DNA from: Streptosporangium saharense | GTDB lineage: Bacteria; Actinomycetota; Actinomycetes; Streptosporangiales; Streptosporangiaceae | Direction: 5' to 3' | NCBI RefSeq assembly: GCF_014203715.1 | Contig: NZ_JACHJP010000001.1 | Coordinates: forward strand, 970,432 to 1,034,431 | DNA: 64,000 nt | Shown: one piece after another, positions 1-64,000 of the stretch | Position numbering within the stretch: the first letter of the stretch is position 1 | Layout: the number at the start of each line of letters is the position of its first letter | Notes under the pieces: model-generated | What the model saw: only the letters and a program-made list of their open reading frames with translations | Told to the model about the DNA's origin: nothing | The model's database searches: none | Made by a program: the position numbers and the translations under genes

Positions 1-677
1 TTGAGGTTGGCGACGCCCACGGTTCCGATGATCTTCCCGGAGGCGTCCCGGAAGCTGGCCCGCAGCAACTGGGTGCATTTGGCCGCCTCAAGCGCCTTCT
101 GGAGCTTCTCGCCGACCACGGCGTCCTTGCACTTCTTGTCCGTCCTGCGAACCGTCATCAGGTAGCTGCGGCCGCCGTACGACACCTTCTTGTGCTTGAA
201 CAGTTCGCCGAGCGTGAGCGCGTACGGATCGGTCGTGCGGGCGCCGGCGAAGCCGAACTTGCCGCTGGGCGGCTGGGGGATGGCCGGGTCGGTCGCGGTC
301 CTCGTGGGGGCGGCGGTGCCGGGGGCGGGGGTGGAGTCGGAGTTCACCAGCATGGTGAGGCCGACGCCGCCCGCGACGAGCACGGCGAGCGCGCCGAGCG
401 CGATGAACAGCGGTCGCCGGGAACGCGGGCCCTCGTCGTATGGACTCCACATCGCCTGCTTGCGCGACGGGGGCTCCGCGGACGAGGGGCCCGGCGTGGG
501 AGTGGGGGCGTTGCCGTACGGCGGGCTCTCCACGGGGCGCTCCCCCTGGACGGGGCTCTGCGGGACGGGCGGTGTGGGGTCGAACCAGCCCTCGGCACGT
601 GCGGGCGGCATCTGACCCGCGGGGCTCTCAGGCTGGACGTACGGCTGGCGGCGCGGCGGCTCCCCGGGAAAACCCAT
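1..677 (-). CDS. Membrane-anchored protein with Pro-rich N-terminus (3' end outside window)
   Basis: Reads from an ATG at 677 leftward without a stop to the window edge, so about 225 residues of a longer protein are visible. Residues 1-85 are rich in Pro, Gly and Ser and look disordered and cytoplasmic. Basic residues (RSRR, about 85-88) precede a single hydrophobic segment at about 90-112. A Pro/Thr/Ala linker follows, then an extracytoplasmic domain with two Cys residues (KKCKD and AAKCTQ) that could form a disulphide. This topology is common for actinobacterial surface proteins. I do not recognise a named family and assign no function. It is followed upstream in the same orientation by the CAP-domain gene, about 36 bases away, so the two may be cotranscribed. 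Confidence 0.7.
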   Translation of the reverse strand, partial: MGFPGEPPRRQPYVQPESPAGQMPPARAEGWFDPTPPVPQSPVQGERPVESPPYGNAPTPTPGPSSAEPPSRKQAMWSPYDEGPRSRRPLFIALGALAVLVAGGVGLTMLVNSDSTPAPGTAAPTRTATDPAIPQPPSGKFGFAGARTTDPYALTLGELFKHKKVSYGGRSYLMTVRRTDKKCKDAVVGEKLQKALEAAKCTQLLRASFRDASGKIIGTVGVANL

Positions 678-713
678 GGGGCAGAGACTAGCCCGCTCTC
701 CGGGCCGGTTCAC

Positions 714-1493
714 TCACGAGTAACCGAAGTCCTGGGTCCACCAGGGACCGCTGACGCCGCCCATCACCCCGACGCCGGTCGCCTTGAGCGAGCAGTTGAG
801 GATGTTGCCTCGATGGCTGGTGCTGGCCAGCCAGCCCCGCACCGCCTCGGCGGCCGTGGCGAAGCCCCGGCCGATGTTCTCCGCGCCCCCGTTGCGGTAG
901 CCCGCGGCCTCCATCCGCTGCCAGGGCGAGCGTCCGTCGGGGGAGGTGTGGGAGAAGACGTCGCTGGCGGCCATCTCGGCGGAGTGCGCCCTGGCCGACT
1001 GGACCAGCCGCCTGTCGATCCGGAACGGCGCGCACCCCGCTTTCCTGCGCTGGGCGTTGACGAGCCTGACGAACTCGCTCTCCAGGGAGCTCAGCGGGAC
1101 GGCGGAGGTGTCGGTGTTCTCCCTGCCCCCGATGTTCTGGTTGTCCCCGCCGATGATGTAGCGGGGGCCGTTGTCGGCGCCGAGGTCGTCGAGCGGGGCG
1201 CGGGGCAGCCGGGTGGCCTGGGGAGTAGGGCGCTCGTTCGGCGTCACCGGGGCTGGCGTGGGGCGGATGACACGTTCGAGCGGGGGACGTCCGTTGGCGT
1301 ATCCCTGTTCGACGGCCGTGGGCGTCGGTCGCGCGGGTCCCGTGTTGTTCAGATAGATCTTCGGGGTGTCGTCGTCACGGCTTCCACGCCCGATGAGATA
1401 GCCCAGCAGCAGCACCGTCATCAGGCAAGCGAAAAGCCCCATACGGCGCAGACTGGTCCGCTGGGTGTCGCGAAGGTGAGGAAGCTGCCACAT
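714..1493 (-). CDS. CAP/SCP-domain (allergen V5/Tpx-1-like) exported protein
   Basis: About 259 residues from an ATG at 1493 (an in-frame ATG at 1442 is the alternative). The N-terminus has a basic stretch and one hydrophobic segment (GLFACLMTVLLLGYLIG), so it is a signal anchor. A Pro/Thr-rich linker follows. The C-terminal 130 residues are a bacterial CAP domain: LVNAQRRKAGC, the H-S-AEMA helix, DVFSHTSPDGRSPWQR, AENIGRGF, and SHRGNILNC near the end. Two Cys residues bracket the domain. CAP proteins are secreted; their bacterial role is poorly defined. The reading frame stays open upstream to 1637, but the added residues look untranslated. A TTGACA hexamer lies at 1543-1538, without a convincing -10. 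Confidence 0.85.
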   Translation of the reverse strand: MWQLPHLRDTQRTSLRRMGLFACLMTVLLLGYLIGRGSRDDDTPKIYLNNTGPARPTPTAVEQGYANGRPPLERVIRPTPAPVTPNERPTPQATRLPRAPLDDLGADNGPRYIIGGDNQNIGGRENTDTSAVPLSSLESEFVRLVNAQRRKAGCAPFRIDRRLVQSARAHSAEMAASDVFSHTSPDGRSPWQRMEAAGYRNGGAENIGRGFATAAEAVRGWLASTSHRGNILNCSLKATGVGVMGGVSGPWWTQDFGYS

Positions 1494-1657
1494 TCCGCTG
1501 CCAAAGATAGAGATGTTTGTGCTGAGGAAAAAGAGAATGTCAAGAACGTATTGGAACCGTTCTGCGAAGAACGGGAGGGCTGATCGTGGCAATGGTCCGG
1601 TGGGGCGGTGCCGTACGGGTAGACTGCTCGGGGACACCGGTGGGGTGAGGCCTCGTT

Positions 1658-1687
1658 TTGACCCGCGCTCAGCCGTACCGGTAACCT
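1658..1687 (+). promoter_or_regulatory. Putative housekeeping promoter of rplM-rpsI-glmM
   Basis: TTGACC at 1658-1663 and TAACCT at 1682-1687 are separated by 18 bases, a good match to a group 1 sigma promoter in a high-GC background. Transcription would start near 1694, giving a leader of about 170 bases before the rplM GTG start. Sequence match only. Confidence 0.5.
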
Positions 1688-1709
1688 GCTAGTTCGTTGT
1701 GTGCGAATT

Positions 1710-1830: not shown

Positions 1831-1862
1831 GCCGAAGACGCGAGCAAAGAAGGCATACGACC

Positions 1863-2306
1863 GTGCGCACGTACACACCCAAGCCTGCCGAAGTCGAGCG
1901 TCAGTGGTTCATCATCGACGCCACCGACATCGTGCTTGGCCGGCTGGCCAGCCACGTCGCGATCCTGCTCCGCGGTAAGCACAAGCCGATCTTCGCCAAC
2001 CATGTCGACACCGGTGACTTCGTCATCGTCATCAACGCCGACAAGGTCGCACTGACCGGCAACAAGCTTGAGCAGAAGAAGGCGTACCGTCACTCGGGCT
2101 ACCCCGGTGGTCTGCGTTCGGTGACCTACGGCGAGCTCATGGAGAAGCGTCCCGACCGCGCCGTCGAGAAGGCCGTCAAGGGCATGCTCCCCAAGAACGC
2201 TCTCGGCCGGAAGATGATCAAGAAGCTCAAGGTCTACGCGGGCTCCGAGCACCCGCACCAGGCTCAGCGCCCGACCCCCTTCGAGCTCACCCAGATCGCC
2301 CAGTAG
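1863..2306 (+). CDS. rplM: 50S ribosomal protein L13
   Basis: 147 residues, the usual L13 length, from a GTG start at 1863. The signature blocks are present: RQWFIIDA near the start, [18 protein letters not shown], the [12 protein letters not shown] segment, and [13 protein letters not shown]13 assembles early on 23S rRNA in the 50S subunit. It is first in the rplM-rpsI pair, with rpsI 71 bases downstream and glmM immediately after that. The gene has a long, folded leader, so control at the RNA level is plausible. Nothing is unusual in the protein. Confidence 0.98.
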
Positions 2307-2377
2307 CCACCGGCTGACCATCGCCAGCAGCGTCGGCCGGACGGCCTGCGCCGAGTTAGGAAAGTAAGAGGAGAACC

Positions 2378-2899
<522 letters not shown>

Positions 2900-2900
2900 G

Positions 2901-4256: not shown

Positions 4257-4263
4257 GAACACC

Positions 4264-15126: not shown

Positions 15127-16059
15127 TCAGATGCGGCGTAGCCGTACGCGGCGGACGGAGTGGTTGGGGCCCTTGTAGAGGATCAGGCCCGCGCGGCCCC
15201 TGGTTGGGGCGATGTTCTCGACCAGGTTGCGTTCGTTGATGTCGCGCCAGATGTCCCTGGCGAACGTGGTGGCCTCCTCCTCCGACAGCTCGGCCAGGTG
15301 CCTGAAGTAGGACTTGGGGTCCTCGAAGGCCGTACGGCGCAGCTTGTGGAAGCGGTCCACGTACCAGTCGCGGATGTGCTCGACCTTGGCGTCCACGTAG
15401 ATGGAGAAGTCGAAGTAGTCGTTGACGGCCAGCGCCGCGGGCGGGGCCGGTTGCAGGACGTTGAGGCCCTCGACGATGAGGATGTCCGGCCTGCGCACGG
15501 TCTGCAGGGCGCCGGGGACGATGTCGTACTCAAGATGGCTGTAGACCGGGGCGCTGACCTCGGGCAGACCGGCCTTGACGTCGGCGACGAAGCGCACCAG
15601 GGCCCGGCGGTCGTAGCTCTCCGGGAAGCCCTTCCTGTGCATGATGTCCCGCTCGGTGAGCACCGCGTTCGGGTACAGGAAGCTGTCGGTCGTGACCAGA
15701 TCGACCCTGGGGTGCTCCGGCCAGCGGGCGAGCAGGGTGTGCAGCAGCCTGGCCGTTGTCGACTTGCCGACCGCGACGCTGCCCGCGATGCCCAGGATGT
15801 ACGGCGAGGGCCGCTGCCCGGCGCCGAGGAAGGTGTTGACCGCCGCCCCCCGCTGCCTGGCGCCGGTGAAGTGCAGGTTGAGCAGCCGGGTGAGCGGCAG
15901 GTAGATGTCGGTGACCTCGGCCAGGTCGATCGGGTCGTCGACGCCGCGCAGCTCCTCAAGCTCGTCCTCGGTGAGCGTCAGCGGAGTGTTCTTGCGGAGC
16001 TCACCCCACTGCTTGCGGCTCAGCTCGACGTACGGCGTGCCGTCCAACCCGTTGGCCAT
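15127..16059 (-). CDS. coaA: Pantothenate kinase, type I
   Basis: 310 residues. The P-loop [14 protein letters not shown], the [13 protein letters not shown] segment, [15 protein letters not shown] and [10 protein letters not shown] are hallmarks of the CoaA family. It phosphorylates pantothenate in the first step of coenzyme A synthesis in the cytoplasm. It is transcribed away from glmS; both promoters share the 127-base gap. The same divergent pair occurs in other actinomycetes. Confidence 0.96.
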
Positions 16060-16132
16060 AGCTCCGAAGCCTACTGATCGGTCAAAAGTGCCTTTCGGTG
16101 GGGACGCCTTTGCCCGATGGCGGGCAGGAATC

Positions 16133-16162
16133 TTGGGCCTGCGGGCACGTTCTCCCTAGTCT
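16133..16162 (+). promoter_or_regulatory. Putative glmS promoter
   Basis: TTGGGC (16133-16138) and TAGTCT (16157-16162) with an 18-base spacer, 24 bases before the glmS ATG. The ribosome binding site AAAAGGGGG follows. The leader is too short to hold a glmS ribozyme, and no ribozyme-like fold is evident. Confidence 0.4.
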
Positions 16163-16186
16163 CGTTCGGACGAAAAGGGGGATCCC

Positions 16187-18031
16187 ATGTGCGGAATCGT
16201 GGGTTATGTCGGCGGGCGGCGGGCCGTTGACGTGGTCGTCGAGGGGCTGGGGCGGCTGGAGTACCGGGGGTACGACTCGTCGGGGGTCGCCCTCGTCGGG
16301 ACCGACGGGGAGCTGACCGTCGAGAAGAGGGCGGGCAAGCTGGCCAACCTGCGCTCAAGTCTGGCCGGGCACTCCGTGCCGCCCGCGACGACCGGGATCG
16401 GGCACACCAGGTGGGCCACCCACGGCGCGCCGACCGACCGCAACGCCCACCCGCACACCGACTGCTACGAGCGGATCGCGGTCATCCACAACGGCATCAT
16501 CGAGAACTTCGCCGAGCTGCGGGCCGAGCTTGAGGACAACGGGCACAAGATCGACTCGGAGACCGACACCGAGGTGGTCGCGCACATGCTCGAAGGGTTC
16601 GCCGACCTCGGGCTCGCCGAGGCGATGCGCCGTACCTGCCGACGTCTTGAGGGGGCCTTCACGCTGCTGGCCGTCTCGGTGGACGAGCCGGACACGGTGG
16701 TCGGCGCCCGGCGCAACTCGCCGCTGGTCGTCGGACGCGGTGACGGGGAGAACTTCCTGGGCTCGGACGTGGCGGCCTTCATCGCCCACACGCGGGAGGC
16801 GGTCGAGCTGGGCCAGGACCAGGTGGTACGGCTGCGCGCCAGCGAGATCACGGTCACCGACTTCGAGGGCCGTCCCGCCCCGACGCGCAACTACCACGTG
16901 GACTGGGACGCCTCGGCGGCGGAGAAGAGTGGCTACGACCACTTCATGCTGAAGGAGATCGCCGAGCAGCCCAGGGCGGTCGCGGACACGCTGCTGGGCA
17001 GGATCGGCGCGGACGGGCTGCTGACGCTGGACGAGATGCGGCTTTCCGGCGAGGAGCTGCGGGAGATCAACAAGATCATCGTGGTCGCCTGCGGCACCTC
17101 CTACCATGCCGGACTTATCGCGAAATATGCCATCGAACACTGGGCGGGTATCCCGTGCGAGGTCGAGCTGGCCAGCGAGTTCAGATACCGTGACCCGATC
17201 CTCACCCGCGACACGCTGATCATCGTGATCAGCCAGTCCGGCGAGACGATGGACACCCTGATGGCCGTACGGCACGCCCGCGAGCAGCACTCCCGGGTGC
17301 TGGCCATCTGCAACGTCAACGGCTCGACCATCCCGCGCGAGGCGGACGCCGTCCTCTACACCCACGCGGGCCCGGAGATCGCCGTCGCCTCGACCAAGGC
17401 CTTCCTCACCCAGCTCGTCGCCTGCTACCTGGTCGCGCTCTACCTCGCCCAGGTCAGGGGGACCAAGTTCGGCGACGAGATCTCCCAGATCGTCGCGAGG
17501 CTGTGGGAGATGCCCTCGCGGGTCGAGGAGGTGCTCTCCACGATGGAGCCGGTCAGGGAACTGGCCCGCTCGTTGGCCGGGGAGCGCTGCGTGCTCTTCC
17601 TCGGCCGTCACGTCGGCTTCCCCGTCGCCCTCGAAGGGGCGCTGAAGCTCAAGGAGCTCGCCTACATGCACGCCGAGGGCTTCGCGGCCGGGGAGCTCAA
17701 GCACGGGCCGATCGCGCTGATCGAGAGCGGGCTGCCCGTCGTGGTCGTGGTGCCCTCGCCGTCCGGCCAGCGGGTGACCCACGAGAAGATCGTCTCCAAC
17801 ATCCAGGAGATCAGGGCGAGGGGGGCCAAGACCATCGTCATCGCCGAGGAGGGGGACACCTCGGTCGAGCCGTACGCCGACACGCTGATCCGCGTTCCCG
17901 CGGTGCCGACCCTGCTCCAGCCGCTGGTGGCGACCGTGCCGCTGCAGGTCTTCGCCTGCGAGCTGGCCACGGCCAAGGGGCACGACGTGGACCAGCCCCG
18001 CAACCTGGCCAAGTCCGTCACGGTGGAGTAG
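16187..18031 (+). CDS. glmS: Glutamine--fructose-6-phosphate aminotransferase (isomerizing)
   Basis: 614 residues. The N-terminal glutaminase begins MCGIVGYVG, with Cys1 as nucleophile after Met removal, and has LEYRGYDSSG and HTRWATHG. Two SIS domains follow (ACGTSYHAG, SQSGETMDTL, then FLGRHVGFPVALEGALKLKE) and the C-terminus ends LAKSVTVE. It makes glucosamine-6-phosphate, feeding GlmM for cell-wall UDP-GlcNAc. The last 14 bases overlap the end of a convergent membrane-protein gene. Confidence 0.98.
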   Translation: MCGIVGYVGGRRAVDVVVEGLGRLEYRGYDSSGVALVGTDGELTVEKRAGKLANLRSSLAGHSVPPATTGIGHTRWATHGAPTDRNAHPHTDCYERIAVIHNGIIENFAELRAELEDNGHKIDSETDTEVVAHMLEGFADLGLAEAMRRTCRRLEGAFTLLAVSVDEPDTVVGARRNSPLVVGRGDGENFLGSDVAAFIAHTREAVELGQDQVVRLRASEITVTDFEGRPAPTRNYHVDWDASAAEKSGYDHFMLKEIAEQPRAVADTLLGRIGADGLLTLDEMRLSGEELREINKIIVVACGTSYHAGLIAKYAIEHWAGIPCEVELASEFRYRDPILTRDTLIIVISQSGETMDTLMAVRHAREQHSRVLAICNVNGSTIPREADAVLYTHAGPEIAVASTKAFLTQLVACYLVALYLAQVRGTKFGDEISQIVARLWEMPSRVEEVLSTMEPVRELARSLAGERCVLFLGRHVGFPVALEGALKLKELAYMHAEGFAAGELKHGPIALIESGLPVVVVVPSPSGQRVTHEKIVSNIQEIRARGAKTIVIAEEGDTSVEPYADTLIRVPAVPTLLQPLVATVPLQVFACELATAKGHDVDQPRNLAKSVTVE

Positions 18032-18773
18032 CCGCGGGTCCCACGGTGATCGCCCACTGCCGGGTGCCCGCGAGGAAGGCCGCGACCGTCAGGGGCAGGC
18101 TGACGAGGCCCGTCACCAGGTCGCCCCAGACGGGCAGGCTGACGGCGGCCAGGGCCCCGGCGAAGGCGAGGACCGCGTTGCCCGTGGCCAGCGTGTGGGC
18201 CGAGCGGGAGCGGGTGGCGAGCACGGCCGCGACCACGTCGGCGGGGGCGGCCGGGATCGGGCGCAGCCGCAGGGAGCGGACCAGGAGCAGCGTTCCGCCC
18301 GTGACGGCGGCGGTCATCACGGTCCAGGGCAGCCCCGGGACGGGCCGTCCCGTCACGGCGACGCCGATCCCGGCCAGCAGGCCCAGCACGCTCAGCGCGG
18401 CGCCGCCGTACAGGAAGGAGCGAGCCTGGGGGGACAGCAGCCGGGGCGGGGCGGGGGCGGCCGCGACCGGGCCGGGCTCGCGCCTGGCGCCGATCGCCAG
18501 CTCCGCCCCGAGCACGCCCAGGAACCAGCCGCTGAACGGATCGAGTGTCAGCGGATCCGGGAGCCCCGTGAGAAGAACGAGGCCCGCAGCCAGCCCAGAG
18601 GCCCGCCACATGCGTGTGGTCCGCAGGTAGCGCCGCACGACCGGCTCCGCGCCGGGGGTGACCGCCAGCGCCTGACGCCTGGCGAACAGGGAGATCCGCT
18701 GCGGGTGCACCGGGCCCGACCAGTACCACGCCGCGAAGGCCATCAGGACGGCGGTGGCGGCCAGCGAGAGCAT
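18018..18773 (-). CDS. Uncharacterised integral membrane protein
   Basis: 251 residues with about six to seven hydrophobic segments arranged in pairs, separated by Arg-rich loops (FARRQ, RTTRMW, ATRSRS). No catalytic motif is evident and I do not recognise the family. Its gene converges on glmS, overlapping it by 14 bases, and stands divergent from acpS. The gap between it and acpS holds a pair of DnaA-box-like sequences. Confidence 0.75.
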   Translation of the reverse strand: MLSLAATAVLMAFAAWYWSGPVHPQRISLFARRQALAVTPGAEPVVRRYLRTTRMWRASGLAAGLVLLTGLPDPLTLDPFSGWFLGVLGAELAIGARREPGPVAAAPAPPRLLSPQARSFLYGGAALSVLGLLAGIGVAVTGRPVPGLPWTVMTAAVTGGTLLLVRSLRLRPIPAAPADVVAAVLATRSRSAHTLATGNAVLAFAGALAAVSLPVWGDLVTGLVSLPLTVAAFLAGTRQWAITVGPAATPP

Positions 18774-18829
18774 GTGATCATTTTAGGAGCGGCGACCGAC
18801 ATTTCCCGTCTCGGCAGGCCATGGGGGAT

Positions 18830-18850
18830 GTGTCCACAACCTGTGGACAA
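18830..18850. promoter_or_regulatory. Head-to-head pair of DnaA-box-like 9-mers
   Basis: The minus strand of 18842-18850 reads TTGTCCACA, the DnaA box preferred in Streptomyces and relatives. The plus strand of 18830-18838 reads GTGTCCACA, one mismatch. Together they give a perfect TGTCCACA-ACC-TGTGGACA dyad in the gap before acpS. Only two boxes and no A+T-rich unwinding region are present, so this is not an origin. Confidence 0.55.
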
Positions 18851-18903
18851 CATCCATGGATTGCCGGGACATGAAAGTGGGTAACGCGGCCTAGCCTGGA
18901 ACC

Positions 18904-19254
18904 GTGATCGTGGGTATCGGGGTCGACGTCGTGGACGTGGCACGTTTCGCGGCGTCGCTCGAAAGGACGCCCTCCCTGCGGGCCAGGCTGTTCACCGAGG
19001 CCGAGCGCGGGCTGGCCGTACGGTCCCTGGCGGCGCGGTTCGCGGCCAAGGAGGCCGTCGCCAAGGCCCTGGGCGCCCCTCCCGGCCTGAGCCACCTCGA
19101 CGCCGAGGTCCTCCCCGGCGCGTACGGCAGGCCCGAACTGCGGGTCCACGGCACGGTCGCCGAGGTCGCCGTGACCCTCGGCGTCCTGCGGTGGCACGTG
19201 TCGCTGACCCACGACGCCGGTGTCGCCGTCGCCTACGTGATCGCCGAAGGCTGA
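18904..19254 (+). CDS. acpS: Holo-[acyl-carrier-protein] synthase
   Basis: 116 residues from a GTG at 18904. The family motifs are [12 protein letters not shown] (metal-binding Asp) and [14 protein letters not shown] (Glu/Lys), and the protein has the usual AcpS length. It transfers 4'-phosphopantetheine from CoA to acyl carrier proteins. It is followed 49 bases later by nnrD, a common actinobacterial pairing. There is no obvious Shine-Dalgarno before the GTG, so translation may be leaderless. Confidence 0.95.
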
Positions 19255-19303
19255 CCGCACGGCCTCGCGCTGCGGCGTGGACGGGACGGGATACCGTCGG
19301 ATC

Positions 19304-20794
19304 ATGCTCAGCGCTTACACCTCCGACCAGATCAGGACGGCCGAGGCGGCCCTGATGGCGAAGCTGCCCGACGGCACGCTCATGGACCGGGCCGCGACCG
19401 GCCTCGCCACGGTCTGCGCGGCGCTGCTCGGCGGCGTGTACGGCTCGCGCGTCGTGCTGCTGGTCGGCTCTGGAGACAACGGGGGCGACGCCCTGTTCGC
19501 CGGGGCACGCCTGGCGGCCAGGGGAGCCAGGGTCGACGCGGTCCTGGCCGGGACCCGGGTCCACGAGGCCGGGCTCGCGGCCCTGCGTCGCGCCGGGGGA
19601 CGCGTCCTGGACGTCAGGGAGGCCGGGGACGACGGGCGGGAGCGGGCACGCACACTGATCAAGCGAGCCGACCTGGTCATGGACGGCCTGCTCGGCATCG
19701 GGGGCGCCGGAGCGCTGCGGGAGCCGTACTCGACGCTGGCGGAACTGACGCATGAGACCGACAGACCGCTGGTCGTCGCCGTTGACGTGCCGAGCGGGGT
19801 GGACGCCAGCACCGGGCGGGTCGAGGGGGAGGCGGTCAGGGCCGACTACACGGTCACCTTCGGCGCCTGCAAGGCGGGACTGCTCGTCAGCCCGGGGGCG
19901 CGCCACACGGGACGGATCGAGTTCGTCGACATCGGGCTCGGGCCTTACACACCGGAGCCCGCGGTGACCGCGCTGACCGACGCCGACGTGGCCGCGATGC
20001 TGCCCAGGCCGGACACCACCTCCGACAAGTACCGCAGGGGCGTGGTCGGCGTCGCGGCGGGTAGTCACGGCTACACCGGGGCCGCGGTGCTGGCGGTCGG
20101 CGGGGCGGTCAGGTCGGGGGCGGGGATGGTCCGCTACGCCGGGGTCGCCGAGCCGGTGGCGCAGGTGCGCGCCCGCTGGCCGGAGGCGGTGATCACGGAG
20201 CTGGCGCCGGGGGAGGGCGTCGGCGAGGTCGGCAGGGTGCAGGCGTGGGTGCTCGGTCCCGGCCTCGGGACGGGGGCGGAGTCGCTGGAGATCGCCCGTA
20301 CCGTGCTGGCGAGCGACGTGCCCGTGCTCCTCGACGCGGACGCGCTGACGCTGGCCGCCCGCGACAGGTCGCTGCTGCGCCGTACGGCACCGGTGCTCGT
20401 CACCCCGCACGCGGGCGAGCTGTCGCGGCTGCTCGACGTGCCCAGGGAGCGGATCGAGGCGGACCCTCTCGACCATGTACGGCGGGCGGTGGACGAGCTG
20501 GGCGTGACCGTGCTGCTCAAGGGTTCGACCACGCTCGTGGCGCGGGACGGCCTGCCGGTCAGGGTGAACCTCACCGGCAGCCCGTGGCTGGCCACCGCGG
20601 GCACCGGCGACGTGCTGGCCGGGATCGCGGGGACGCTCCTGGCGGCCGGGCTCGACGCCTACGACGCGGCCTCGTGCGCCGCCCACCTGCACGGCCTGGC
20701 CGGTGCCGACGGGCCCGTGTCCGCCTGGGACGTCCTTGAGGCCGTCCAGGGGGTCGTACGGTCCCTCCTCGAACCCGGGTTCCGGTCGAAGTAG
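19304..20794 (+). CDS. nnrD: Bifunctional NAD(P)H-hydrate epimerase / ADP-dependent NAD(P)H-hydrate dehydratase
   Basis: 496 residues from the ATG at 19304, giving MLSAYTSDQIRTAEAALMA as in relatives; an in-frame ATG at 19277 is less likely. The N-terminal YjeF_N domain has VGSGDNGGDALFAGARLA and VVAVDVPSGVDA. The C-terminal ribokinase-like dehydratase has KYRRGVVGVAAGS, VTPHAGELSRLL, LLKGSTTLVA and the catalytic GTGDVLAGI. It repairs hydrated NADH and NADPH. Common neighbour of acpS and alr in actinomycetes. I use nnrD as the fused-gene symbol. Confidence 0.94.
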   Translation: MLSAYTSDQIRTAEAALMAKLPDGTLMDRAATGLATVCAALLGGVYGSRVVLLVGSGDNGGDALFAGARLAARGARVDAVLAGTRVHEAGLAALRRAGGRVLDVREAGDDGRERARTLIKRADLVMDGLLGIGGAGALREPYSTLAELTHETDRPLVVAVDVPSGVDASTGRVEGEAVRADYTVTFGACKAGLLVSPGARHTGRIEFVDIGLGPYTPEPAVTALTDADVAAMLPRPDTTSDKYRRGVVGVAAGSHGYTGAAVLAVGGAVRSGAGMVRYAGVAEPVAQVRARWPEAVITELAPGEGVGEVGRVQAWVLGPGLGTGAESLEIARTVLASDVPVLLDADALTLAARDRSLLRRTAPVLVTPHAGELSRLLDVPRERIEADPLDHVRRAVDELGVTVLLKGSTTLVARDGLPVRVNLTGSPWLATAGTGDVLAGIAGTLLAAGLDAYDAASCAAHLHGLAGADGPVSAWDVLEAVQGVVRSLLEPGFRSK

Positions 20795-20923
20795 GGCGGG
20801 AGTTTCGGACGCGGCGAGCCGGGCAGGTGGAGTGCTCGTCCCGGCCGCCAACCAGGCGCCGGAAACGTCCCTAAAGGGGTGCCTTTGGCATAGGTTAGAC
20901 CGCTGACCTGGGAGACTGGATGA

Positions 20924-22051
20924 ATGAGCATGCCGATGACCCCTGCCGAGGCGAGGGTGAACCTCTCTGCCATCAGGGAAAACGTGGCCTTGCTGAGGGA
21001 GCGCTCTCAGGGCGCGGAGACCATGGCCGTGGTCAAGTCCGACGGTTACGGCCACGGCCTGGCCGCCTCCGCCGAGGCCTGCCTCGCGGGGGGCGCGACC
21101 AGGTTCGGCACCGCCTACATCCGTGAGGCTCTGGCGCTGCGGGCCGCCGGGGTCACGGTGCCGGTCCTGGCGTGGATCATCCCGCCGGGCGAGCCTCTTG
21201 AGGAGGCGATCGTCCAGGGGATCGACCTGTCGGCGGGCGCCGTGTGGCTGGTCGACGCGATCGCCGAGGCCGCGGGCCGTACGGGCAGGGTGGCCAGGGT
21301 GCACCTGAAGGTGGACACCGGCATCCGCAGGGGCGGCGCGACCAGCGCCGAGTGGCCCGCGCTCGTGGAGCGTGCCACCAAGCGGCAGATCGAGGGGACG
21401 ATCGAGGTCGTCGGGCTCTGGTCCCACCTCGCCTGCGCCGACATGCCCGGCCACCCGTCCGTCGAGATCCAGCTCGACGCCTTCGACGAGGCCCTGGCCA
21501 TCGCCGGACGGGCGGGGCTCGGCGGCTCGCACGTGATCCGGCACCTGGCCAACTCGGCGGCGGTGCTGACGCTGCCCAGGGCGCGCTACGACATGGTCCG
21601 TCCCGGGCTCGCGCTCTTCGGCCTGAGCCCCATCCCGGAGCTGGGCGACTTCGGGCTGCGGCCCGCGATGACCCTGGTCGCGCGGATCGCGATGGCCAAG
21701 CGGGTGCCCGCGGGCTGCGGCGTCTCCTATGGCCACACCTACCTCACCGACCGCGAGACCACGCTCGGCCTCGTCCCCCTCGGCTACGCCGACGGCATCA
21801 TGCGCCACGCGGGCAACACGGCCCAGGTGCTCGCGGGCGGCAGGCGGCGACTCGTCGCGGGACGGGTCTGCATGGACCAGTTCGTCATCGACGTCGGGGA
21901 CGACCCGATCGCCGAGGGTGACGAGGTCGTCGTCTTCGGTGACGGATCGCGGGGGGAGCCGACCCTGCAGGAGTGGGCGGATTCCCTTGGCACGATTACC
22001 CATGAGATTGTGACCAGGATCGGATCGCGGGTTCCGCGCGTTTACCACTGA
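20924..22051 (+). CDS. alr: Alanine racemase
   Basis: 375 residues from the ATG at 20924 (ATGs at 20930 and 20936 are also in frame; GGGAG is best spaced for the first). The PLP lysine lies in AVVKSDGYGHGL near residue 38, the catalytic Tyr in GVSYGHTYLT, and the C-terminal MDQFVIDVGD is typical. It interconverts L- and D-alanine for peptidoglycan. Next genes are an alpha/beta hydrolase and tsaE, the usual actinobacterial order. Confidence 0.96.
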   Translation: MSMPMTPAEARVNLSAIRENVALLRERSQGAETMAVVKSDGYGHGLAASAEACLAGGATRFGTAYIREALALRAAGVTVPVLAWIIPPGEPLEEAIVQGIDLSAGAVWLVDAIAEAAGRTGRVARVHLKVDTGIRRGGATSAEWPALVERATKRQIEGTIEVVGLWSHLACADMPGHPSVEIQLDAFDEALAIAGRAGLGGSHVIRHLANSAAVLTLPRARYDMVRPGLALFGLSPIPELGDFGLRPAMTLVARIAMAKRVPAGCGVSYGHTYLTDRETTLGLVPLGYADGIMRHAGNTAQVLAGGRRRLVAGRVCMDQFVIDVGDDPIAEGDEVVVFGDGSRGEPTLQEWADSLGTITHEIVTRIGSRVPRVYH

Positions 22052-22073
22052 GAGGGCATGACTGGGGGGTCGC

Positions 22074-23174
22074 ATGAGCAACACCGCACGGCGCAGGGTC
22101 GGCATCGCGGGAGCCGTCGTCGGCACCGCGTCCGCCGGGGTGGCCGCAGCGGCCCTCGCCAAGCGGTACGCGGTCGGACGCATCAGGCTCCGGCCCGACC
22201 TGGAGATGAGCGAGCCGCTCGGTGAGCTGCGCGGCGAGCCGGTCAGGGTCACCACCTCCGACGGCGTCAGCCTCTACGCCGAGGTGGACGGTTTGGAGAC
22301 CTCCCCGCTGACCGTGGTGCTCTGCCACGGCTACACGCTCAATCTGGACTCCTGGCACTACCAGCGACGCGACCTGCGTGAGTCCTACCGCCTGGTCCTG
22401 TGGGACCAGCGCGCGCACGGCCGCTCGCCCCGCGCGGGCGCGGAGGGCTCCACGATCGACCGGCTCGGCGACGACCTGGCCGAGGTGATCGCGGAGCTGG
22501 TGCCGGGGCCGTGCGTCCTGGTCGGCCACTCCATGGGCGGGATGACCGTCATGGCGCTGGCCGAGCGCTACCCCGAGCTGTTCGGCGACAAGATCAAGGG
22601 TGTCGCGCTGATCTCCACCTCGGCGGGCAAACTGGCCGAGATCTCCCTCGGGCTGCCCGCGCTGCTGTCGAGGGCGGTGCACAAGGTCACCCCGAGCACG
22701 GTCGCCCTGCTCGGCCGGGGCGGCGCGCTGGTCGACAAGGGGCGTCAGGCGGGCAACGACGTGGCCTTCCTGCTCCTGCGCCACCTGGGCTTCGGCGACC
22801 CGAAGAGCGTCAGCCCGACTGTCGTCGACTTCGCCGAGTCGATGATCCGCTCGACGCCGTTCGAGGTGATCGCCGACTTCTACCCCGCGCTGATGTCGCA
22901 CGACAAGCTGAGCGCCCTCGGCGTCCTGGACGACGTGCCGACCTCCATCATCGTGGGGGACAAGGACTGGCTGACGCCGATCGAGCACAGCAGGGCCATC
23001 GCGGCGGCGCTGCCGCGCGCCCAGCTCACCGAGGTTCCGGGAACCTCCCACCTGATCCAGCTCGAACGCCCTACGGTCGTCAACGACGCGCTGCGCGACC
23101 TGCTCAAGCGGGCGGCGGCCGAACCAGGGGGCGGCGAGCCCGGACGGACACCACCAGGGGAGAAGAGACAGTGA
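22074..23174 (+). CDS. Alpha/beta hydrolase with N-terminal hydrophobic segment
   Basis: 366 residues. After a hydrophobic N-terminal segment (GIAGAVVGTASAGVAAAALA) that may be an anchor or signal, an alpha/beta-hydrolase fold follows. It has an oxyanion-type HGYTLNLDSW, nucleophile elbow GHSMGG (Ser near 155), an Asp in GDKDWLTP and the His in GTSHLIQLE. The substrate is unknown; this family sits between alr and tsaE in many actinomycetes. The C-terminal 20 residues are Gly/Pro/Arg-rich. The stop codon overlaps the tsaE GTG by 4 bases. Confidence 0.88.
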   Translation: MSNTARRRVGIAGAVVGTASAGVAAAALAKRYAVGRIRLRPDLEMSEPLGELRGEPVRVTTSDGVSLYAEVDGLETSPLTVVLCHGYTLNLDSWHYQRRDLRESYRLVLWDQRAHGRSPRAGAEGSTIDRLGDDLAEVIAELVPGPCVLVGHSMGGMTVMALAERYPELFGDKIKGVALISTSAGKLAEISLGLPALLSRAVHKVTPSTVALLGRGGALVDKGRQAGNDVAFLLLRHLGFGDPKSVSPTVVDFAESMIRSTPFEVIADFYPALMSHDKLSALGVLDDVPTSIIVGDKDWLTPIEHSRAIAAALPRAQLTEVPGTSHLIQLERPTVVNDALRDLLKRAAAEPGGGEPGRTPPGEKRQ

Positions 23175-23623
23175 GAGTCGTGGCGACCGCCGAGGAGATG
23201 CGTGAGCTCGGCGTCGAGCTGGCCGGGCTGCTGCGCGCGGGAGACCTCGCGGTGCTCTCCGGGCCGCTGGGCGCGGGCAAGACGACCCTGGTCCAGGGGA
23301 TCGCCGAGGGGCTGAAGGTGCGCGGGCCGATCACCTCCCCGACCTTCGTCATCGCCAGGGTCCACCCCTCGCTGGCCGGGGGCCCCGCCCTGGTGCACGC
23401 CGACGCCTACCGGCTCGGCGGGGACCTTGAGGTCGACGACCTCGACCTGGACGCCTCCCTCGAAGACTCGGTGACGGTCGTCGAGTGGGGTGAGGGCCTC
23501 GTCGAGGGGCTGACCGAGGACCGCCTTGAGATCCACATCCAGCGCGCCGAGGCGGCCGGGGTCGGCGAGGAGCGGACCGTACGGCTGAACGGCGTCGGCG
23601 CCCGCTGGGAGGGCGTTGTCTGA
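23171..23623 (+). CDS. tsaE: tRNA threonylcarbamoyladenosine biosynthesis ATPase TsaE
   Basis: 150 residues from the GTG at 23171, which overlaps the hydrolase stop (GTGA). Walker A is GPLGAGKTTLVQGI, followed by ITSPTFVI and VHADAYRL, and VTVVEWGEGL marks Walker B. TsaE binds TsaB-TsaD and its ATP hydrolysis is needed to turn over t6A synthesis at position 37 of ANN-decoding tRNAs. TsaB and TsaD are encoded 1.4-2.6 kb downstream, separated by a sortase pair. The frame open upstream is a shadow inside the hydrolase gene. Confidence 0.95.
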   Translation: MRVVATAEEMRELGVELAGLLRAGDLAVLSGPLGAGKTTLVQGIAEGLKVRGPITSPTFVIARVHPSLAGGPALVHADAYRLGGDLEVDDLDLDASLEDSVTVVEWGEGLVEGLTEDRLEIHIQRAEAAGVGEERTVRLNGVGARWEGVV

Positions 23624-23746
23624 TTCACCCCCGTAGGCACGGGAATCCTGTCACTCTGGCAGCACGCCCCACTTGGTATAGATCATTGGAACCGAAGATC
23701 GACCATGCGGGTATGCCCATGTTTAATGGGATTCAGGCGGGAAGTT

Positions 23747-24460
23747 ATGCCGGGCAAAGGGTCGTCGGCCGGACTGCGAAGTGGAGTGCGACGGGTGCCA
23801 AGGGTCAAGCGTGTCGCGGTTCTGGGGGCTGCGGCCCTCTTCGGAGTGGCCGGATGTACGGCCCAGCCCACCACGGAGAACACGGACGGGAACGTCTCGC
23901 CCGTGTCGCAACGGACGGCGATCAGCAGGCAGGACATCGAGGTCCAGCTCCAACCGGCCCGCGCCAAGGCCGGGCAGAAGGTATGGGTGCTGGCGAACTG
24001 CCCCATCCCCGAGGGCGGCCCCGAGCACAGGGGCACCGCCTCCTCCGAGGCCTTCGGCGCCCCGATCACCCTTGAGCCCATCCTCGCCACCCCGAGCCCC
24101 TCGGCCTCGGCGACCGGCACGCCCGCGGCGCGCCCCTGGGTCCGCGGCCAGGCCACCGTCGCCGACAGCGTGAAGGCCGGGGTCTACGACGTCAACACCA
24201 GGTGCGAGGGCACCAACGACACCGGCAAGGCCGGGCTGCGGATCGTCTCCGACACCAAGCCGAGCTCCGAGCCGACCACGCGCCCGAGGCCGACCCGCAC
24301 GATCATCTCCACCCACGCTCCCGGCACCGGCGGCGGAGGCACCGCCGCGGGCGGCCCCAACGACGGCTCCGGCATGCCGCTCGGCGCCACCGGGGCACTG
24401 CTCGCCGTCGCCCTGGCGGGCGGCGCGGGCTACCTCGTCGTACGGCGCCGCCGCTCGTAG
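23747..24460 (+). CDS. Exported protein with lipobox-like signal and sortase-like C-terminal sorting signal
   Basis: 237 residues from the ATG at 23747 (GGCGGGAAG upstream); a GTG at 23795 and an ATG at 23705 are alternatives. A basic N-region is followed by a hydrophobic stretch ending LFGVAGC, a lipobox-like site with Cys37. The mature part has an Ig-like region with two Cys, then Pro/Thr-rich linkers. The C-terminus has LGATG (212-216), a hydrophobic span and RRRRS, the layout of a sortase signal, although the usual second-position Pro is Gly. The next gene is a class F sortase, 17 bases away, so it is probably the substrate. A simple membrane anchor is the alternative. Confidence 0.75.
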   Translation: MPGKGSSAGLRSGVRRVPRVKRVAVLGAAALFGVAGCTAQPTTENTDGNVSPVSQRTAISRQDIEVQLQPARAKAGQKVWVLANCPIPEGGPEHRGTASSEAFGAPITLEPILATPSPSASATGTPAARPWVRGQATVADSVKAGVYDVNTRCEGTNDTGKAGLRIVSDTKPSSEPTTRPRPTRTIISTHAPGTGGGGTAAGGPNDGSGMPLGATGALLAVALAGGAGYLVVRRRRS

Positions 24461-24477
24461 TGGCCCCGTAGGCACCG

Positions 24478-25035
24478 ATGGCAGACTCCTCCCGCTGGAC
24501 CCGGATCATCGTCGCCGGGCTCGTCACCGGCTTCGTGATGGTCGCGGTCAACAAGGGCGTGGGCAGGGACGAGACCCCCGCCCGCGCCTCGGTCGTGCCC
24601 AAGCGCCTCGACATCCCCTCGCTGGGCATCGAGGCGCCGCTGATGAAGCTCGGCGTCACCGACGGCCAGATCGACCTGCCGCCCTTCGACAGGCCGGACA
24701 CGGCCGGATGGCTCAAGGAGAGCGCGGTCCCCGGCGACCCCGGCTCCGCGGTGATCCTCGGGCACGTGGACACCAAGACCGACCCGGCCGTCTTCTACAA
24801 GCTGAAGCAGATGCGGTCCGGGCAGGTGATCAAGGTCGTGCGCAGCGACGGCAAGGTCGCCCAGTACCGCGTCGACTCCATCGAGCAGACCAGCAAGGAA
24901 CGTTTCCCCGCAGACAAGGTCTACCTGGAGGACGGCCTGAGGCTCATCACCTGCGGCGGGACCTTCGACTGGGACAAGCACGAGTACCGCGACAACGTGA
25001 TCGTCTACGCGACCCTCGTCAAGGCGAGGACCTGA
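24478..25035 (+). CDS. Class F sortase
   Basis: 185 residues. An N-terminal hydrophobic anchor (about 9-25) leads into a sortase fold. The catalytic triad is visible: H96 in VILGHVDT, C159 in LITCGG and R171 in HEYRDNVIVY. The early PKRLDIPSLGIEAPL motif is typical of class F enzymes of actinomycetes. It cleaves sorting signals on the outer face of the membrane and attaches proteins to the wall. It is likely cotranscribed with the preceding candidate substrate. Placement between tsaE and tsaB separates genes that are often adjacent. Confidence 0.92.
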   Translation: MADSSRWTRIIVAGLVTGFVMVAVNKGVGRDETPARASVVPKRLDIPSLGIEAPLMKLGVTDGQIDLPPFDRPDTAGWLKESAVPGDPGSAVILGHVDTKTDPAVFYKLKQMRSGQVIKVVRSDGKVAQYRVDSIEQTSKERFPADKVYLEDGLRLITCGGTFDWDKHEYRDNVIVYATLVKART

Positions 25036-25066
25036 CCCGATCCGAGACGGACTAGGCTAACTGTTC

Positions 25067-25750
25067 GTGCTGGTCCTGGCCTTTGATACCGCGACCCCCG
25101 CCGTCACCGCAGCGCTGCACGACGGCGAGAGAGTCCTGGCCGAGTCGACGACGGTTGACGCGCGTCGGCACGGCGAACTGCTCGTACCCACGATTGAGAC
25201 GGTCCTGCGGGAGGCCGGTGCCGTCCTCGCCGACGTCACGGTCGTCGTCGCGGGCGCCGGTCCCGGTCCCTACACCGGGCTGCGGGTCGGCCTGGTCACC
25301 GCCCAGGCCCTGGCGACCTCGCTGGGCGTGCCCGCGTACGGCGTGTGCACCCTCGACGCCGTGGCCTACGGCAGCGGCCTTGAGGAGCCGTTCCTGGTGG
25401 CAACCGACGCCCGCCGCAAGGAGGTCTTCTGGGGCCACTACGAGGACCGCAGGACACGTCTGTCCGGACCGGCCGTCGACAAGCCCCAGGACCTGCCCGC
25501 TGAGCTGCCGCTCGTCGGCGCGGGCGCGCGGATGTACGCCGAGGTCGTCGGCGCCTCCCGGCTGCTCGACGTCCCCGAGTACCCCTTCGCCGGGGCGCTG
25601 GCGGCGCTTGCCGCCGAGCAGCTCGGCCAGCCCGACGTGGCGGAGGTCGTGGAGAGCGGCACGCACCCGGTGCTGAGCCTGCCCAGGCCGATCTACCTGC
25701 GCCGTCCCGACGCCCAGGTGCCCGCGCCGCCGAAGAGGGTCACGGCGTGA
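25067..25750 (+). CDS. tsaB: tRNA threonylcarbamoyladenosine biosynthesis protein TsaB
   Basis: 227 residues from a GTG at 25067 giving (M)LVLAFDTATPAVTAAL, the family N-terminus. It has GAGPGPYTGLRVGL and YLRRPDAQVPAP at the end. TsaB is an inactive ASKHA-fold partner that dimerises with TsaD. The stop overlaps the rimI start (GTGA). tsaB-rimI-tsaD are consecutive and overlapping, so they form one translational unit. Confidence 0.95.
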   Translation: MLVLAFDTATPAVTAALHDGERVLAESTTVDARRHGELLVPTIETVLREAGAVLADVTVVVAGAGPGPYTGLRVGLVTAQALATSLGVPAYGVCTLDAVAYGSGLEEPFLVATDARRKEVFWGHYEDRRTRLSGPAVDKPQDLPAELPLVGAGARMYAEVVGASRLLDVPEYPFAGALAALAAEQLGQPDVAEVVESGTHPVLSLPRPIYLRRPDAQVPAPPKRVTA

Positions 25751-26199: not shown

Positions 26200-27223
26200 C
26201 GAACCCCTGGTGCTGGGCATCGAGACCTCCTGCGACGAGACCGGGATCGGCATCGTCAGGGGGCACACCCTGCTGGCCAACACGATCGCCTCAAGCGTCG
26301 AGCAGCACGCCCGCTTCGGCGGCGTCGTGCCCGAGGTCGCCTCACGGGCCCACCTTGAGGCCATGACCCCGACCGTCGAGCGGGCCCTCGACCAGGCCGG
26401 TCTGCGCATGACCGACATCGACGCCATCGCGGTGACCGCCGGTCCCGGTCTCGCGGGTGCCCTGCTCGTCGGCGTCGCCGCCGCCAAGGCCTACTCGCTC
26501 GGGCTTGGCGTGCCCCTGTACGGCGTGAACCACCTGGCCGCCCACGTCGCGGTTGACCAGCTCGAACACGGCGCCCTGCCGAAGCCCTGCATCGCGATGC
26601 TGGTCTCCGGCGGCCACTCCTCGCTGCTGCTGGTGCCCGACGTCGCCAAGGAGGTCATCCCGCTCGGCTCGACCGTGGACGACGCGGCGGGGGAGGCCTT
26701 CGACAAGGTAGCCCGCGTGCTCGGCCTGCCCTTCCCCGGCGGCCCCCACATCGACCGGGTCGCGGGCGACGGCTCGGGCACGGCCATCGCCTTCCCCAGG
26801 GGCAAGCACGACGACGGGACGCTCGACTTCTCCTTCTCCGGCCTGAAGACCGCAGTCGCCCGCTGGGTCGAGGCCAGGGAGCGCGCCGGTGAGACGATCC
26901 ACGTGCCGGACGTGGCCGCCTCCTTCCAGGAGGCCGTTGTGGACGTGCTGACCCACAAGGCTCTGCTGGCCTGCCGCGAGTACGGCGTGCAGGACCTGCT
27001 GATCGGTGGCGGCGTCGCCGCCAACTCCCGGCTGCGGGCGCTGGCCCAGGAGCGCTGCGACGCGGCGGGCGTACGGCTGCGCGTCCCCCGGCCCGGTCTG
27101 TGCACCGACAACGGGGCCATGGTGGCCGCGCTCGGCTCCGACCTGGTCGCGGCCGGGATCTCCCCGTCTCCGCTGGACATCCCCGCCGACTCCTCGCTGC
27201 CGATCACCACGGTCCACGTGTGA
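26192..27223 (+). CDS. tsaD: tRNA N6-adenosine threonylcarbamoyltransferase TsaD
   Basis: 343 residues. The ASKHA fold begins [16 protein letters not shown]. The metal-binding His pair is in NHLAAH, and [31 protein letters not shown] and [10 protein letters not shown] are standard. It transfers threonylcarbamoyl from TC-AMP to A37 of tRNAs. The start overlaps rimI by 8 bases. It ends 15 bases before the convergent OYE gene. Confidence 0.97.
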
Positions 27224-34891: not shown

Positions 34892-36544
<1,653 letters not shown>

Positions 36545-60238: not shown

Positions 60239-60242
60239 CCCC

Positions 60243-62195: not shown

Positions 62196-63097
62196 GAGAG
62201 TGTCCTTTCCAGGGGCGGTACGGCGGAGCGTGGACGGACGGGGCCGGGGAGCTGGCCCGCGACGATCGCGGCGAGGGAGAGCCCGAACCCCGCGATCTGG
62301 ACCGGGCCGAGCGTCTGGCCGAGCAGTACGACACCGAGAACGGCGGCGACCAGCGGCGAGAGCAGGCCGAGAACCGCGACGGAGGTGACGGGCAGGACGG
62401 TGATGCCGTGGAACCACAGGGCGTAGGAGATGAGGCCGCCGACCAGCCCGAGCCAGAGGTAACCGAGGCCCGCGGCCAGGTCGATCGCCGGGGGCGCCCC
62501 CTCGACGAGGAACGTGATCGGGACCAGGAACAGGCCTCCCGCGGCGAGCTGCCACCCGGCGAAGGCGGTCGCGCCGACCCCTTCTGGCCGTCCCCAGCGC
62601 TTGGTGAGCGTCACGCCGAGCGCCATCGTGACCGCGCCCGCGAGACCCGCGACCACCCCGGTGACGTCGAGCGCCGCGTTCGGCCCGATCACCACGAGGC
62701 CGACGCCGACGACGCCCACGATCCCCCACAGAACGCGCCGGGCCGAGGGGCTCTCCCGCAGGACCGTCACGGCGAGGACGGCGACGACGAGCGGCTGGGC
62801 CGCCCCCAGGGTCGCCGCGACGCCGCCGGGCAGCCGCTCGGCCGCGACGAACAGCAGCGGCAGGAACAGCCCGATGTTCAGCACGCCGAGCACCGCGGCC
62901 TTGCCCCACCAGGCTCCGCGCGGCAGCGTCCTGGTGATCGCCAGCGCGACCAGGCCGGCGGGCAGCGCGCGCAGCAGCCCCGCGAACAGGGGGTGGCCCT
63001 GCGGGAGAAGCTCGGTCGTGACGACGTAGGTCGTGCCCCACACCAGGGGCGCGAGCGCGGTCAGGACCGTACGCGGCAGATTTCCGAAATTTGACAC
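62192..63097 (-). CDS. EamA/DMT family exporter
   Basis: 301 residues with ten hydrophobic helices, in two five-helix EamA repeats. The start TALAPLVWGTTYVVTTELLP and LAAAQPLVVAVLAV-type and SYALWFHGITVLPVTSVAVLGLLSPLVAAVLG blocks are typical of the PecM/YdcZ-like branch. It probably exports amino acids, dyes or similar metabolites. Its gene is divergent from a LysR regulator across 79 bases and is coupled to the Rossmann-fold gene. Confidence 0.9.
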   Translation of the reverse strand: MSNFGNLPRTVLTALAPLVWGTTYVVTTELLPQGHPLFAGLLRALPAGLVALAITRTLPRGAWWGKAAVLGVLNIGLFLPLLFVAAERLPGGVAATLGAAQPLVVAVLAVTVLRESPSARRVLWGIVGVVGVGLVVIGPNAALDVTGVVAGLAGAVTMALGVTLTKRWGRPEGVGATAFAGWQLAAGGLFLVPITFLVEGAPPAIDLAAGLGYLWLGLVGGLISYALWFHGITVLPVTSVAVLGLLSPLVAAVLGVVLLGQTLGPVQIAGFGLSLAAIVAGQLPGPVRPRSAVPPLERTLS

Positions 63098-63151
63098 TTT
63101 CGCAGTCTCGCCGCGCGACTATTGATGAGTCCAACACATGTTTGTCAGCTC

Positions 63152-63174
63152 ATCCATCGTGAATCAAGATGGAT
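63152..63174. promoter_or_regulatory. ATCCATC-N9-GATGGAT inverted repeat before the LysR gene
   Basis: Perfect 7-bp arms at 63152-63158 and 63168-63174, ending three bases before the LysR start codon and within the gap shared with the EamA operon. It matches the spaced dyad expected for a LysR site and suggests autorepression and control of the exporter. Confidence 0.6.
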
Positions 63175-63176
63175 TC

Positions 63177-64000
63177 ATGGAGCTCCAGCAAATGCGCTAC
63201 GTCGTCGCCGTCGCCGAGACGAACAGCTTCACCCGGGCCGCCGAACGGTGCCTGGTCGTCCAGTCGGCCCTCAGCCACCAGATCGCCCGCCTGGAGCGGG
63301 AACTCGGCGCCCGCCTCTTCGAACGCACCAGCCGTCGCGTACGGCTGACGCCCGCCGGTGAGGCGTTCCTGCCCGCCGCCCGTCAGTGTCTTGACGCCGC
63401 GGACCGGGCCGCGGCCGAGGTCGCCGCAGCCGTCGGGGAGGTGCGCGGACGGCTCGCGGTCGGCCTGATCCCCACCGTGGCCGCGGTGGACATCCCGGAG
63501 GCGCTGCGCGTCTTCCGCGAGCGCTACCCGCACGTGCGGATCAACCTGCGGGTCGGCGCCAGCGAGGACCTCACCGAGCAGGTCAGGCAGGGCGTGGACG
63601 ACGTGGCCTTCCTCGGGCTGCCGACCACGGCGCGGCCCGAAGGCGTCGCCGTACGGGAACTGGCCCGGGACCGGCTCGTCGCGGTGGTCGCGCCCGGCCA
63701 CCCCCTCGCCGCGGAACCGACGGTCACCCTCCGCAGGCTCTCCCGCGAGGTGTTCGTGGACTTTCCCGCGGGGACGGCGGGACGCGTCCAGTCCGACCAG
63801 GCCTTCGCCGCCGCGGGACTCAGCCGGGACGTGGCCTTCGAGGTGACCACCGCCGACTACGTCACCCGGCTCGTCGGCCCAGGGCTGGCGGTGTCCATGC
63901 TCCCCAGCACCTACGTGCCCCAGCTCACGGGGGTGGTGACCATCGAGGTCACCGATGCGCCGAACCGCATCGAATACGTCATCTGGCGCCGCTCCGGCCA
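63177..64000 (+). CDS. LysR family transcriptional regulator (3' end outside window)
   Basis: 274 residues are visible from the ATG at 63177 and the frame is still open at the edge. The N-terminal HTH is MELQQMRYVVAVAETNSFTRAAERCLVVQSALSHQIARLERELGARLFERTSRRVRLTPAG. The effector domain begins GRLAVGLIPTVAAVDIP and is near complete. It is divergent from the EamA/Rossmann pair, which it probably controls. Few residues appear to be missing, since the family averages about 300. Confidence 0.93.
   Translation, partial: MELQQMRYVVAVAETNSFTRAAERCLVVQSALSHQIARLERELGARLFERTSRRVRLTPAGEAFLPAARQCLDAADRAAAEVAAAVGEVRGRLAVGLIPTVAAVDIPEALRVFRERYPHVRINLRVGASEDLTEQVRQGVDDVAFLGLPTTARPEGVAVRELARDRLVAVVAPGHPLAAEPTVTLRRLSREVFVDFPAGTAGRVQSDQAFAAAGLSRDVAFEVTTADYVTRLVGPGLAVSMLPSTYVPQLTGVVTIEVTDAPNRIEYVIWRRSG

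Follow-up and report, generated by a model that had tools for sequence, protein, structure and literature searches.

Near-elimination of CTCGAG from the genome of Streptosporangium saharense, read as avoidance of a Type II restriction site

XhoI and PaeR7I cut the sequence CTCGAG, and Streptomyces make XhoI isoschizomers. Avoidance of Type II restriction sites in prokaryotic genomes, including the traces left by lost systems, is described by Rusinov et al. (2015, PMC4687349), and removal of restriction sites by prokaryotic viruses, sometimes complete, by Rusinov et al. (2018, PMC6286503). Here we analysed a 64,000-nucleotide stretch of Streptosporangium saharense (the whole stretch is called the window) in which CTCGAG is absent, together with the rest of the genome, which has nearly eliminated the site and carries a putative XhoI-like restriction-modification pair. 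As in the 2015 account, both a genome that carries the matching system and relatives without it have fewer copies of a palindromic Type II site than expected; unlike in that account, the site is here nearly eliminated (0.01–0.03 of expectation). The main text of that paper contains none of the terms codon, synonymous, ribosomal, CTCGAG, or Streptomyces, and the Leu-Glu record and spared translation genes reported below are not described in it. No report of CTCGAG avoidance in actinomycetes or their phages was found in the literature searched, which included few subscription journals and did not extend to REBASE. The phenomenon is a real and very deep restriction-site avoidance of a known mechanism class; its new parts are the depth of avoidance, the dicodon record, and the spared genes. 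The explanation we favour, with a probability of roughly 0.78, is that CTCGAG, as a Type II restriction site, has been selected against over a long time and throughout the gene pool, and that the latest purge plausibly involved the resident pair.

An earlier note on the window had reported that CTCGAG appeared to be missing, and an exact search found no copy in the 64,000 bases. One hundred dinucleotide shuffles gave a mean of 41.6 copies (sd 6.2) and a maximal-order Markov model gave 43.9, about double the 20 or so that the note had expected by chance. Expected values throughout are maximal-order Markov or codon-product values. The whole-genome count, which the note had proposed as a check, showed depletion rather than a frequency near expectation: 170 copies in 8,496,112 bases against about 6,000 expected (~5,990 when scaled from the sampled chromosome). 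That chromosome sample, 564 kb in 26 stretches, held 6 copies against 397.5 expected; its core set excludes six stretches (L010–L015) fetched for their visible clusters of sites. Under-representation beyond composition, as expected of an avoided restriction site, was therefore found in the window, the genome, and the sampled stretches. Of the 43 palindromes whose expected count in 344 kb of this genome was 8 or more, CTCGAG was the lowest at 0.01 of expectation. General avoidance of palindromes was rejected, given that the median of the 43 was 0.74. GAGCTC, which served as the control for genome counts, is itself at 0.50–0.89 of expectation.

The coding sequence of the window shows how the site is avoided. 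In called genes of at least 100 aa, the 107 Leu-Glu pairs were written as CTTGAG (41), CTGGAG (35), CTCGAA (25), or other spellings (6), and never as CTCGAG. A larger codon sample comprised 292 called genes in 344 kb, window included; gene calling relied on a home-made program based on G+C by frame, which missed both of the restriction genes described below. In this sample, CTC-GAG occurred twice against 136.9 expected, whereas CTT-GAG was raised 8.5-fold (133 vs. 15.6) and CTC-GAA 5-fold (110 vs. 22.2), enrichments which indicate that rare codons are tolerated to avoid CTCGAG. CTG-GAG was at 0.76 of expectation (170 vs. 223.5). The earlier statement that Leu-Glu is instead written CTTGAG or CTCGAA was correct for the enrichment of both, but CTG-GAG is still common and is the commonest spelling in the larger sample. 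Its examples from rplM, glmS, and groEL, identified here by NCBIfam models, were indeed free of CTCGAG (Table 1).

The depletion extended beyond the codon pair. Off-frame, xxC-TCG-AGx was absent against 23.5 expected and xCT-CGA-Gxx against 3.4; outside called genes, a single CTCGAG was found in the 344-kb sample against 16.6. In the control context of CTT before GAC, CTT was used at 0.97 of expectation, with no enrichment. Normal CTT use before GAC combined with off-frame and non-genic depletion indicates that the hexamer is avoided, not a codon, and upholds the note's view that selection acts on DNA rather than through codon bias. Its off-frame example was sustained in part: TCAAGC is present where it was reported (Table 1), but TCA is not favoured as a substitute, with xxC-TCA-AGx at 10 against 10.6 expected. 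A codon-pair or translational avoidance of CTC-GAG would account for the bulk of the effect lying in frame 0, the frame with the highest expected count of the site, but not for the losses off-frame and outside genes. Such avoidance should also peak in translation genes, where CTC-GAG instead persists, and the sister species G006 uses CTC-GAG at 0.88 of expectation. As the effect is not confined to frame 0, we rejected this explanation and regard it as the least credible of those weighed here.

Phages provided evidence on the agent. In 25 kb of each of eight Streptomyces phages, CTCGAG was absent from all eight (0 vs. 163.2 expected) and was the lowest of 43 palindromes. These phages were a non-random set: five were taken because their terminases resemble that of a prophage-like stretch in this genome, two of these five belonging to the same genus, and the other three are classics. 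The sampled phages resemble those of the 2018 account in eliminating a restriction site, although its main text names neither CTCGAG nor Streptomyces. CTCGAG was also absent (observed/expected) from Bxb1 (0/14.1), Appa (0/20.4), Zanella (0/17.4), and Pseudomonas phage D3112 (0/6.3), and occurred once each in D29 (1/14.2) and TM4 (1/15.1). Rhodococcus phage REQ3 showed no avoidance (17/17.5). Avoidance by phages, expected of a restriction site, was thus observed in the Streptomyces phages sampled. Because phages avoid CTCGAG, cleavage is indicated as the agent, and we hold with good confidence that restriction is the selective force. The prophage-like stretch itself (L012, L013) contained 13 CTCGAG against 22.7 expected (~0.57), and its terminase shares 56% identity with the terminase of Streptomyces phage SoJo. 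The Streptomyces phages (L317–L322, L327, L328) also nearly lacked AGGCCT (3 vs. 66.0), and phiC31 and Hiyaa were nearly without GCCGGC (1/30.9 and 0/17.9).

The search for a CTCGAG methylase or endonuclease gene that the note had suggested yielded a predicted XhoI-like pair that lies upstream of the window in the same genome, at a distance of about 383 kb. By longest reading frames, it consists of a 583-aa methylase followed 15 bp downstream, on the same strand, by a 240-aa endonuclease. The endonuclease matched PF04555 at 166.5 bits (cut-off 25) with no internal stop; the methylase matched PADLOC-DB model PDLC03313, a type listed for Type II systems (E 3.5e-194), and the adenine-type Pfam families N6_Mtase and Eco57I. 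Endonuclease residues D86, E100, and K102 and methylase residues N176-P177-P178-Y179 were invariant across 12 relatives each, and we take them to be the catalytic motifs of the two enzymes. A search of solved structures with the endonuclease gave no match at E 0.001. The pair resembles XhoI-type systems in having a PF04555 endonuclease next to an adenine-type methylase, and this copy is about 40–42% identical to the higher-scoring XhoI-family members compared. Among the best 80 of at least 563 confirmed relatives of the endonuclease, the named records with 69–79% identity include those of Actinomadura, Streptomyces, Kitasatospora, Kibdelosporangium, Frankia, and Nocardiopsis. On these sequence grounds, the pair would be active and CTCGAG-specific. 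It adjoins two other genes, one for an o-aminophenol-oxidase-like protein of the PhsA-like multicopper oxidase type and the other for a non-ribosomal peptide synthetase (L009:9645-19317). A related pair in G007 adjoins an integrase-like reading frame, by our own reading, and 21 viral-collection contigs (L146–L166) also encode relatives of the XhoI-type endonuclease.

The depletion was also compared across relatives, with the ratio of CTCGAG to GAGCTC as its measure. This ratio was 0.05–0.27 in 15 of 16 genomes of the genus and 0.67 in G006. Among 200 genomes of the family, the endonuclease was found in 15 (14 above cut-off), the methylase in 17, and both in 13; the ratio lay below 0.3 in 87, of which 5 had the pair. 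The 187 genomes counted as lacking the pair include two with an endonuclease match only (G137, under the cut-off, and G185) and four with a methylase match only (G026, G043, G067, and G089). In the phylum, ratios computed for 100 rows of a 296-genome sample had a median of 1.10, with nine below 0.3 and this genome the lowest; deep depletion is therefore not a phylum-wide rule.

Several of these observations weigh against the favoured explanation. The endonuclease is found in only 4 of the 16 genus genomes, with the methylase in the same four. In the family, the 13 pair carriers had a median ratio of 0.53 against 0.37 in the 187 others (p = 0.67), so the depth of depletion did not track presence of the system among relatives, as restriction-site avoidance would lead one to expect. 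The expectation that carriage of the pair would predict depletion among the 200 genomes was accordingly not borne out. Phages of Mycobacterium and Microbacterium avoid CTCGAG as well. The G+C content of both restriction genes is 0.61–0.63 against 0.72–0.74 in the two neighbours named above, which suggests horizontal arrival, and one CTCGAG lies inside the endonuclease gene itself; from these two features, the resident copy may be a recent arrival. The earlier note's proposal of an XhoI-type system as the cause consequently fared in two ways, in that a pair is present but a single local cause is too simple for a genus with 15 of 16 genomes depleted and 4 carriers. The published model allows for traces of lost systems, so the p value of 0.67 tells more strongly against the resident pair than against restriction. 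We give the resident pair a little better than an even chance of having driven the latest purge.

The same distribution could arise if a system directed at CTCGAG that we did not recognise, either a non-XhoI endonuclease or a nuclease for modified CTCGAG, were the main agent in the genus and the resident pair a recent passenger. In agreement with this, the pair is missing from 12 of 16 genus genomes, 11 of them depleted; G015, for example, has 121 CTCGAG in 6.2 Mb without the pair, and family members with the pair are no more depleted than the rest. Loss of a once-resident system gives the same pattern, however, and a methylase remnant is preserved in G089, which with 62 sites shows the deepest depletion among the 200 family genomes. 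This truncated XhoI-type methylase fragment covers model positions 17–181 of 563 (Table 1), and a search for the endonuclease in G089 gave no match. The fragment is likely, by its sequence, a fossil of a lost restriction system, which fits the lost-system pattern described in PMC4687349. No candidate for the other system turned up, though no inventory of restriction genes was made, and we consider this alternative unlikely. Should the resident pair prove not to be responsible, there would be a system directed at CTCGAG yet to be discovered.

Comparison with G006 bears on the order of events under restriction-site avoidance. This genome and G006 were sisters with 100% support in protein and nucleotide trees of 11 genes, within a depleted genus. 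The branch to this genome was about twice the length of the G006 branch in both trees (window genes 15130–27223). G006 has 3,739 CTCGAG and neither the endonuclease nor the methylase. At 57 G006 CTCGAG sites aligned in 96 genes, this genome has CTTGAG (15), CTCGAA (15), CTGGAG (7), or other sequences (20), and CTCGAG at none. Transitions make up only 0.064 of the 0.279 differences at fourfold sites in the same alignment. In 13 other congeners, sampled with one stretch each, CTG-GAG was the main Leu-Glu spelling at 1.31 times expectation, with CTT-GAG at 3.75 times and CTC-GAG at 0.02. (The set "own_islands" in the Leu-Glu spelling comparison pools the prophage-like stretch and the ribosomal cluster.) Low CTG-GAG with high CTT-GAG and CTC-GAA, as found in this genome, is the spectrum expected of a purge from a CTCGAG-rich pool, such as that of G006, before transversions have accumulated. 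Judging by these spellings, the common ancestor with G006 would have lost the pressure and regained sites, and this lineage would have purged them again later. Avoidance may instead have been continuous here with relaxation in G006 alone, but this leaves the low CTG-GAG unexplained.

The same replacements bear on a mutational hotspot, in which a methylated C in CTCGAG changes to T and the site erodes without selection. The 8.5-fold enrichment of CTTGAG, the C-to-T product, is what such erosion would leave. CTCGAA, a change at a different position, nevertheless equals CTTGAG among the replaced G006 sites (15 and 15 of 57), and with no dominant C-to-T product, decay of a single methylated cytosine was rejected. 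Moreover, the resident methylase resembles adenine-type families, and CTCGAG is wholly avoided by phages. We regard a hotspot as very improbable.

Of the 170 residual sites, 55 were located, 50 from a genome listing and five more in fetched stretches; all 33 on contig C1 were listed. The sites examined were mostly coding and mostly in frame 0. Fourteen of the 55 lie in translation or transcription genes: nine C1 sites in frame 0 (L10, RpoC with two adjacent sites, EF-G, EF-Tu, S3, L6, S4, and RpoA), further sites in L19, a KH-domain RNA-binding protein, and a sigma-70 family factor, plus two in genes that, from weak matches, we take to be S1-like and CarD-like. Thirteen lie in the prophage-like stretch and 28 elsewhere, including the genes for UMP kinase, MtrA, an ammonia-lyase, a transporter ATPase, and the endonuclease. 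A cluster of residual sites at C1:928-968k was rejected as a mobile island, as gene calls and family models identified it as the cluster of genes for ribosomal proteins and RNA polymerase. Across 38 aligned genes of the ribosomal cluster, this genome has kept 6 of 16 G006 sites, compared with none of 57 elsewhere (Fisher p = 4.7e-5). At the S4 site, all 16 genus genomes have CTCGAG, and at the RpoA site 12 of the 16 do. They do so even though fourfold positions of S4 and RpoA differ by 0.15–0.24 between this genome and six congeners; elsewhere the difference is 0.28–0.39. Codon constraint in genes of this type would be the simplest reason for survival of their sites.

If CTCGAG were instead the binding site of a chromosomal protein whose stray copies are removed, all frames and resident DNA would be affected, as they are. 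The examined residual sites are mostly coding and in frame 0, though, phages avoid CTCGAG completely, and the sister G006 has 3,739 copies. No sign of a DNA-binding-site role turned up, although no direct test was made, and we give this explanation only a slim chance.

Selection against a restriction site would operate as follows. XhoI-type endonucleases that cut CTCGAG would circulate in the actinomycete gene pool, and a cell bearing the site would risk breaks upon a system's arrival, its under-methylation, or its loss. With this risk, each CTCGAG would be slightly harmful and synonymous escape mutations would fix. The ancestor of G006 and this species would have escaped the pressure and regained sites, followed here by a later purge, perhaps through the resident pair, proceeding mainly by two synonymous transitions to CTTGAG and CTCGAA. 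Strong codon constraint in translation genes would outweigh the pressure, so that old sites persist there. More tentatively, mycelial actinomycetes and their phages may be under a strong, long-lasting restriction pressure at CTCGAG for which today's XhoI-family genes do not account, whether from an unrecognised CTCGAG-directed system or through avoidance set by the time-averaged exposure of the whole gene pool. If so, the Leu-Glu spellings, with CTT-GAG and CTC-GAA arising first and CTG-GAG later, would form a clock of restriction gain and loss, and translation genes would keep ancestral sites through the prevailing of codon constraint.

The two sister species, which differ about 20-fold in site number, form a natural experiment for studying the effects of restriction on genomes. 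In the altered codons the purge has left a legible record, and the spared genes show where codon constraint appears stronger. For DNA transfer into such strains, CTCGAG-free plasmids would be the first choice to try.

Table 1. Coordinates of the features discussed, in window positions unless a contig or locus is given (G000, this genome).
Feature	Coordinates	Strand	Remarks
Stretch lacking CTCGAG on both strands (the absence itself is the feature)	1..64000 = G000:C1:970432-1034431	.	0 vs. 41.6 (shuffles), 43.9 (Markov)
rplM	1863..2306	+	Single Leu-Glu is CTTGAG; identity by NCBIfam model
glmS	16187..18031	+	Leu-Glu: CTTGAG 2, CTCGAA 2, CTGGAG 1, CTCGAG 0; identity by NCBIfam model
TCAAGC, off-frame example of the earlier note	26291..26296	+	TCA not enriched in frame (10 vs. 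10.6)
groEL	34901..36544	+	Leu-Glu: CTTGAG 6, CTGGAG 3, CTCGAA 1, CTCGAG 0; identity by NCBIfam model
Predicted XhoI-like pair	G000:C1:584644-587133	-	
Prophage-like stretch, C2:312-352k (approximate extent)	G000:C2:312000-351999		
XhoI-type methylase fragment in G089	L057:1324-2079		

Other palindromes also differed from those of congeners. GCCGGC is a second depleted site, for which a NaeI-family gene was sought in this genome and none was found. In the window and 344 kb of this genome, GCCGGC, CAGCTG, and ATCGAT were deeper than in other congeners, at 0.18 (0.74 in congeners), 0.25 (0.52), and 0.06 (0.26), respectively. CAA-CTG was raised 2.95-fold, a trace resembling that of CTCGAG.

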